Positions 10,663 to 53,953 of a stretch of DNA of 53,953 bases are shown in pieces. Source of the DNA: Alphaproteobacteria bacterium (GTDB lineage Bacteria > Pseudomonadota > Alphaproteobacteria > M2410); NCBI GenBank assembly GCA_030614785.1, contig JAUWTJ010000021.1, positions 1-53,953 on the forward strand, read 5' to 3'. A model generated the notes under the pieces. It made no database searches. It was not told where the DNA came from and was given only the letters and a program-made list of their open reading frames with translations. Position 1 is the stretch's first letter. The number at the start of each line of letters is the position of its first letter. A program made the translations under genes and the position numbers.

Positions 10663-10750
10663 GCGGACGTGGCGGAACTGGTAGACGCGCAGCGTTGAGG
10701 TCGCTGTGGGATAATATCCCGTGGAAGTTCGAGTCTTCTCGTCCGCACCA
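10663..10750 (+). tRNA. tRNA-Leu(GAG)
   Basis: An 88-nt class II tRNA with encoded CCA. The acceptor GCGGACG pairs perfectly with CGTCCGC, the anticodon stem CAGCG/CGCTG holds loop TTGAGGT with anticodon GAG at 10697-10699, and the long variable arm contains GGGATAATATCCC. The T-arm is GGAAG/CTTCT around TTCGAGT and the discriminator is A73. Its last 24 nt plus five flanking bases recur downstream at 10821-10849. Confidence 0.96.
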
Positions 10751-10788
10751 ACTTTTTGCGCAGCAATCAGTCCTTTCCACGAACATTC

Positions 10789-10849
10789 GGGCGGCTCGAA
10801 CTGCTTCGCAGTTCAAGCGGGTTCGAGTCTTCTCGTCCGCACCAACTTT
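10789..10849 (+). repeat. Hairpin-headed element carrying a copy of the tRNA-Leu 3' end
   Basis: Positions 10821-10849 repeat 10727-10755 exactly (29 nt), covering the tRNA-Leu T-loop, the 3' acceptor strand, the CCA and five bases beyond. The upstream half is not tRNA: it begins GGGCGGCTC (10789-10797), then a hairpin GAACTGC-TTC-GCAGTTC (10798-10814), then CAAGCGGG. The T-stem cannot form properly here, so it is not a second tRNA. The 56-nt block 10789-10844 aligns without gaps to one on the minus strand at 53884-53829, whose tail is tRNA-Ser instead. Confidence 0.85.
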
Positions 10850-15085: not shown

Positions 15086-15180
15086 AATCCATTGCCTTCT
15101 TCCCCGCGAGGAGGGTGATGGGTTCCGGGACTCGCCGTCAAGTTCAACCTGCTTACAGGGATTTCAAGATTTCGCCTCAC

Positions 15181-53550: not shown

Positions 53551-53827
53551 GAGGCTCTACTACTCTGTAATTTGAAAGGCGGGGCGGGTGCTTGTGAACT
53601 CTCGTGGTGGAAGTACTACCCGCGGTTAACGCAAACCCCGTGCCACAGAAGATATGCAGCAAAAACAATATGTTAAAGGTGGGTTTTGATACCCGCCGGC
53701 GTAACTTGTACGAATTCGATCACGGCCTTGTACGATATCGCACAGTCAAATATCAGCCGGTTTTGATAATTTGTGGGCTGGCGCCGGGGAAGCCGTGGCC
53801 TGCCACCCGAAGCTCGAAGAGCGCAGG
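53551..53827. other. Upstream region of the RND transporter operon
   Basis: This region has no convincing gene. It contains paired direct repeats: GGTTTTGATA at 53682-53691 and 53759-53768, and CTTGTACGAATTCG (53705-53718) with CTTGTACGATATCG (53727-53740). The second pair is spaced 22 bp apart, two helical turns, and each has a palindromic right part. Further right is a GTGGC-CT-GCCAC palindrome. These may be regulator sites for the RND operon. Confidence 0.5.
53705..53740. promoter_or_regulatory. Tandem direct repeats upstream of the RND operon
   Basis: CTTGTACGAATTCG and CTTGTACGATATCG differ at two of 14 positions and are phased 22 bp apart. They lie about 155-190 bp before the transporter start and could bind an activator or repressor; no regulator gene is adjacent. 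Confidence 0.35.
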
Positions 53828-53884
53828 GTGGCGGAGAGACAGGGATTCGAGCCAGCTTGAAATGCAGTGCATTTGGAGCCGCCC
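53828..53884 (-). repeat. Hairpin-headed element with a tRNA-Ser 3' tail (copy 1)
   Basis: Read on the minus strand from 53884, the element begins GGGCGGCTC, has a hairpin AAATGC-ACT-GCATTT, continues CAAGCTGG, then runs into TCGAATCCCTGTCTCTCCG and CCA, a tRNA-Ser 3' end. The block 53884-53829 is 56 nt, the same length as the tRNA-Leu element, and aligns to it without gaps through the head. The upstream T-stem half cannot pair with CCCTG, so it is not part of a tRNA. Confidence 0.85.
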
Positions 53885-53924
53885 GTGACGGGGCTGGCTT
53901 TGGCTCGGCGCTTTGCGCCAAGTA

Positions 53925-53953
53925 GTGGCGGAGAGACAGGGATTCGAGCCAGC
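53925..53953 (-). repeat. Second tRNA-Ser 3' tail copy at the window edge
   Basis: The last 29 bases repeat 53828-53856 exactly, 97 bp apart. They too carry CTGGCTCGAAT, which would not give a proper T-stem, so this is another element copy rather than the true tRNA. The head would lie beyond the edge. A source tRNA-Ser gene probably lies further right on the minus strand. Confidence 0.75.

Follow-up and report, generated by a model that had tools for sequence, protein, structure and literature searches.

A family of short repeats follows tRNA genes in the draft genome of this alphaproteobacterium (G000), in which a common hairpin-bearing head runs, from a junction at the T-loop, into a copy of the local tRNA 3′ end. 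This anatomy is secure. The kind is already known from the RtT repeats of E. coli, and what is new here is a head of unrelated sequence, which fails both to match the RtT model (RF00391) and to form the RtT closing stem. It is an even call that the units are lineage-specific ‘tRNA-tail repeats’ working in the manner of RtT, sharing the transcript of the tRNA and giving rise, on processing, to a small RNA with a CCA end; such a function is what we infer.

The window, the whole 53,953-nucleotide stretch of DNA that was analysed, is an entire contig (C2), and its gene order, serS-surE-pcm-peptidase-secD-secF, suggests an alphaproteobacterium. The features that concern the family are as follows.

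10663 to 10750, plus strand: tRNA-Leu(GAG) gene, CCA encoded (ARAGORN).
10727 to 10755, plus strand: original tRNA-Leu 3′ end, T-loop to CCA and 5 nt more; copy 1 of a 29-bp direct repeat.
10751 to 10787, plus strand: spacer from CCA to head, its hairpin reduced in this Leu(GAG) copy.
10788 to 10820, plus strand: head common to the family, CGGGCGGCTCGAACTGCTTCGCAGTTCAAGCGG (covariance model R1, 75.5 bits).
10794 to 10818, plus strand: hairpin stem of 11 positions with one C.A mismatch (family alignment).
10821 to 10849, plus strand: copied tRNA-Leu tail, T-loop to CCA (10844) and 5 nt more; 29/29 repeat.
53795 to 53828, minus strand: copy of a second palindromic family, after the copied Ser tail.
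53828 to 53856, minus strand: copied tRNA-Ser tail, at 97-bp spacing to the next copy.
53829 to 53885, minus strand: unit of the Ser(TGA) array, head with Ser tail (models R1 and R2).
53925 to 53953, minus strand: preceding Ser tail, cut by the contig end and continuing on contig C41.

The first-pass annotation had described an exact copy of the tRNA-Leu 3′ end 94 bp downstream of the original, fused to a non-tRNA head with the hairpin GAACTGC-TTC-GCAGTTC, and both are borne out. The 29-nt GTTCGAGTCTTCTCGTCCGCACCAACTTT is present at 10727–10755 and again, with 29/29 identity and a spacing of 94, at 10821–10849; the hairpin core is at 10798–10814, with the stem reaching 10794–10818, and a model of the head alone (R2) gives 48.3 bits at 10786–10821. 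There is a single 94-bp unit at this locus, made up of spacer, head and tail copy on the same strand as the tRNA, and about 65 bp separate its two direct repeats. The spacer hairpin is clear in the Arg, Leu(CAA), Ser and Gly units. Within the window neither an intrinsic terminator nor a promoter-like site was found between tRNA-Leu(GAG) and the unit, and a promoter-like site for the unit is absent on both strands. The opposite-strand unit with a tRNA-Ser tail that the same annotation placed at the right edge is indeed there. The contig break falls within this tRNA-Ser array, which contig C41 carries onward as far as tRNA-Ser(TGA); the whole array has at least three 97-bp units. Agreement of the Leu and Ser heads at 32 of their first 41 positions was reproduced by eye, and the compensatory change reported between their hairpins, C-G to A-T, is real; one adjoining pair, G-C in the Leu copy, becomes C.C in the Ser copy.

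With RF00005, 40 tRNA places were found in G000 and their flanks examined. A tail copy lies no more than 250 nt downstream in 5 of the 40 tRNAs with enough flank: Leu(GAG), Leu(CAA), Ser(TGA), Arg(CCT) and Gly(CCC), each with its own tail. The controls on the same 40 gave no tail copies upstream, none on the reverse strand, and no copies of the tRNA 5′ end or middle. As five downstream copies stand against zero in all controls, the Leu and Ser tail copies are not due to chance. The units, one to several in tandem, are downstream of the tRNA on the same strand with the head joined to the tail copy at the T-loop, and the five loci bear out the proposal of a repeat family whose head is fixed and whose tail is a copy from the local tRNA.

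R1, the covariance model that combines head and tail, scores 60–75 bits at ten places in G000 and 37–41 bits at three tRNA-Phe-derived sites. With R2, all 16 matches with E<1e-3 are at tRNA ends or tRNA-derived sites, and no significant match elsewhere in G000 was obtained; the result that the annotation had named as refuting it, a head as frequent away from tRNA genes as near them, did not appear. To its question whether each head match ends in the 3′ end of the adjacent tRNA, the answer is yes at the five tRNA loci; one copy, at 21053 on contig C112, has no clear tail. Four of the R2 matches are on C112, at tRNA-Phe 3′ halves; others include an orphan array that is split over C53 and C105 and has a Ser(CGA)-like tail, a pair of copies on C65 that are fused to, or close to, a partial tRNA-Arg, and, some 1.2 kb away from tRNA-Leu(CAA), a decayed copy. 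At the Leu(CAA) locus a second unit is present but degenerate. Decayed family copies are found in the orphan array and in tRNA-derived integration sites.

The surroundings of some of these copies can be described further. Three attachment-like sites about 3.1 kb apart, near 15121, 18337 and 21131 of C112 (L129), each have the tRNA-Phe 3′ half from the anticodon loop, with the hairpin within the T arm and GTTACATA-type repeats before it; the cargo between them includes genes for a TonB receptor, GFA and Sel1, and no integrase was seen in the stretch of C112 that was read. On C65 (L054), cargo of about 2.6 kb (methyltransferase, cupin, LysR) is bracketed by two attachment-like copies, at 1–70 and 2625–2790, that derive from tRNA-Arg(CCT) and contain the hairpin unit.

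These distributions bear on the main rival explanation, a DNA-level element with tRNA 3′ ends as its target and the T-loop as its point of entry, be it a small mobile palindrome or the terminus of an integrative element. On that view the original tRNA end would have been displaced to become the copied tail, the hairpin would serve a recombinase or transposase as its site, and any RNA would be incidental. This is a tentative reading, clearly short of an even chance. What speaks for it most is that one head is scattered over many tRNAs within G000 (it is absent from relatives), together with the second palindromic family; the copies at attachment-like sites that derive from tRNA-Arg and tRNA-Phe, in apparent islands (on C65, and three on C112), are also in its favour. 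A recombinase is nonetheless absent beside the units, the left boundary of the element is not conserved, and one attachment core would hardly yield tails that track so many tRNA types. The units resemble the attachment sites of tRNA-integrating phages and islands in their direct repeat of the tRNA 3′ end from T-loop to CCA, and differ from attL/attR in that the repeats are only about 65 bp apart, an integrase is lacking and each unit has the conserved hairpin. Like REP/BIME palindromes they are short, dispersed and lineage-specific; unlike them they are only at tRNA 3′ ends and carry a tRNA tail, and no Y1/RAYT transposase adjoins them. There are three Y1-type transposase genes in G000, a further point for a DNA-level element, but neither units nor second-family copies are near them.

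The second palindromic family (CCCTGCGCTCTTCGAGCTTCGGGTGGCAGGCCACCC...) is about 85 bp long, has terminal inverted repeats of about 23 bp and is present at seven places in G000. In addition to the copy in the window these include the following.

1501 to 1588 of L244 (C91): second-family copy.
L245 (C113), L246 (C12), L247 (C80), L248 (C143) and L249/L250 (C120): second-family copies.

In 7/7 cases its first base is the one directly 3′ of a CCA, the hosts being five tRNAs (Val, Leu twice, Tyr and Thr) and two copied tails (in the Ser array and at Leu(CAA)). That it begins after copied tails just as elsewhere after the CCA of tRNAs suits a DNA-level element, and shows that a copied tail is treated as a tRNA end. 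At Leu(CAA) it sits between the tail and the degenerate second unit and so probably came after the array formed. GGGTGG has two possible pairing partners, the CCACCC that includes the tRNA's CCA and another CCACCC downstream. A relative of this repeat, CCCTTCGCTGCTGCGCAGCTTCGGGTGGCAGGCCAC, was seen in a member of another family of the class (G017, L059, minus strand) after the CCA of tRNA-Arg(CCT).

The hairpin of the head covaries. Across eight or nine units there are two-sided changes in 8 of the 11 stem pairs, where shuffles expect 1.8–2.3, and the covariation score collapses once the stem register is slid. Covarying pairs, together with the lack of a terminator or promoter-like site before the unit, argue for a co-transcribed RNA. 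On the other side, there are no one-sided G.U changes in about 88 paired stem cells and indeed no one-sided changes at all, which is unusual under RNA selection and, stem variation being all two-sided, favours a DNA-level element; the C.A mismatch, retained in 7/9 units, would be a G.U pair on the opposite strand. The missing one-sided changes and the kept C.A fit RNA selection less well than upkeep of a DNA palindrome or shared descent. The minus strand folds better as well (z −3.93, plus strand z −2.5). An RNA from that strand, antisense to the tRNA 3′ end and with the tail complement first and then a near-perfect hairpin, would account for both the better fold and the G.U, but no promoter-like site exists on either strand and RtT, the best-known relative, is transcribed from the tRNA strand, leaving this a very improbable source of the pattern. 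A pairing of the head 5′ strand with the tail or acceptor strand, as an RtT-like closing stem or minihelix, was tried and rejected: tail swaps showed no preference for the own tail, and unit-bearing tRNAs were not favoured by GGGCGGC (p = 0.065). No other Rfam family was found in a search of the unit loci.

RtT has been known since 1991, its function is unsettled, and it is usually described from one operon. Release from the tRNA transcript as a stable RNA and an effect on the stringent response are among the traits by which an RtT would be recognised. The comparison that had been drawn with E. coli rtT is apt, and reaches well past tRNA-Tyr. In strain K-12, RtT loci are at tRNA-Tyr (tyrT/tyrV), tRNA-Lys (lysT operon, five units), tRNA-Arg (argVYZQ, three), tRNA-Pro (proK) and tRNA-Ser (serX, two or more units), and at all five tRNA types the units have a common head and then the local tRNA tail; the rule of fixed head and local tail was therefore already true of RtT. 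Many E. coli units are annotated in RefSeq as RtT sRNA, and one unit is the annotated RNA rttR; RtT is transcribed from the tRNA strand. RtT relatives in Actinobacillus have been detected by Northern blot and RNA-seq (PMC4986893).

The units of G000 share with RtT (RF00391; E. coli and other gammaproteobacteria) a position 3′ of the tRNA on the same strand, a tail copy with CCA, a hairpin head common to several tRNA loci and fused near the T-loop, and an occurrence in tandem with variable copy number (the Ser array has at least three 97-bp units, Leu(GAG) one). The element is nevertheless not a member of RtT, though laid out alike: the head sequence is unrelated, with one main hairpin where RtT has several, and head and tail meet where the T-loop starts (GG|GTTCGA) and not, as in RtT, just past it (A|ATCC). 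RF00391 matches nothing in G000, and nothing within the unit loci at E<=1, while the tyr units of K-12, as positive reference, score 133–138 bits. The G000 units also lack a closing stem of head with tail. In E. coli the RtT 5′ strand pairs with the tail, the own tail being best or tied-best in 8 of 10 units. At L170, L177, L179, L182 and L186 of K-12 it complements the local T-stem 3′ strand and tracks tRNA identity, as at lysW, where CGTGTAGGAT pairs with ATCCTGCACG.

Among E. coli strains the number of RtT copies changes by whole units, in steps of 168 bp at proK and 181 bp at serX. A proK allele that is one unit shorter is a contraction and not an untouched site, since the truncated last unit is still there. 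Such shifts are what would be expected if tRNA 3′ ends were merely duplicated by slippage or recombination, the array then drifting without function. For G000 this neutral origin is unlikely, as local duplication explains neither one head common to five tRNA loci nor the covarying stems, nor why the tail is copied and never the tRNA 5′ end or middle.

For the units as co-transcribed precursors of a CCA-ended RNA, the remaining arguments are that all five loci have own-tail units and all significant head matches are tRNA-associated, and that RtT, with the same rule, whole-unit variation, an annotated rttR and relatives seen as RNA in Actinobacillus, suggests a like product here. Read-through from the tRNA would transcribe the unit, cutting of the tRNA 3′ trailer would free it, and its 3′ end would be matured as a tRNA end is, yielding a hairpin RNA some 56 nt long, or some 94 nt if the spacer is included. 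Recombination between tails may alter copy number, as for RtT among E. coli strains, and local duplication with gene conversion may keep the tail matched to its tRNA. Against this count the absence of a closing stem and, in E. coli itself, the position of the proK and serX units past an intrinsic-terminator-like hairpin. Of the two explanations that the annotation had offered, a processed CCA-ended RNA and the scar of a mobile element, each thus has evidence on its side.

Across 384 other genomes of the class, R1 found nothing above about 33 bits, and those of its weak matches there (about 30 bits) that were inspected proved to be ordinary tRNA genes. A pattern for Ser-tail arrays, run across the class, was set aside, its matches being mostly chance ones within coding sequence, and paper searches on tRNA-end repeats gave no relevant result. 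Relatives do have tail-copy arrays, with heads unlike that of G000: in G001 at tRNA-Arg(CCT) (two units of 85 bp) and tRNA-Val(GAC) (at least four of 110 bp), and in G003 at tRNA-Val (two of 109 bp) and tRNA-Gly (173 bp). Reading of the sequences shows two differences in the Val array hairpin from G001 to G003, a G-C pair replaced by A-T and one G.U. Within the tRNA-Val(GAC) array of G001 (contig C112 of that genome, 92–530, L132), GATTGAACC exactly complements the tRNA-Val T-loop region GGTTCAATC. Further tail copies, in a non-random sample of loci fetched for other reasons, are at tRNA-His (G138) and tRNA-Ser (G360 and G035), and behind tRNA-Pro of G203 there is a weak RtT match whose tail is that of Pro.

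As the G000 family has the RtT layout and unrelated sequence, the tail-copy arrangement exists in more than one bacterial lineage. An independent family shows which features recur, namely the hairpin, the T-loop junction and the local tRNA tail with CCA, and thereby makes an RtT-type function testable by comparison; it also has a bearing on how repeats and islands are drawn to tRNA 3′ ends. It is possible, though still rather doubtful, that tail capture is general and recurring, with unrelated hairpin elements in proteobacterial lineages moving to tRNAs, joining at the T-loop and, as part of the same conjecture, adopting the 3′ end of whichever tRNA adjoins the landing place. RtT and the G000 family would then be instances, and the tRNA-Val, Arg, Gly, His, Ser and Pro arrays of other genomes more of them; the copied end would be a portable tRNA 3′ end, serving as an RNA processing signal or a DNA landing site.
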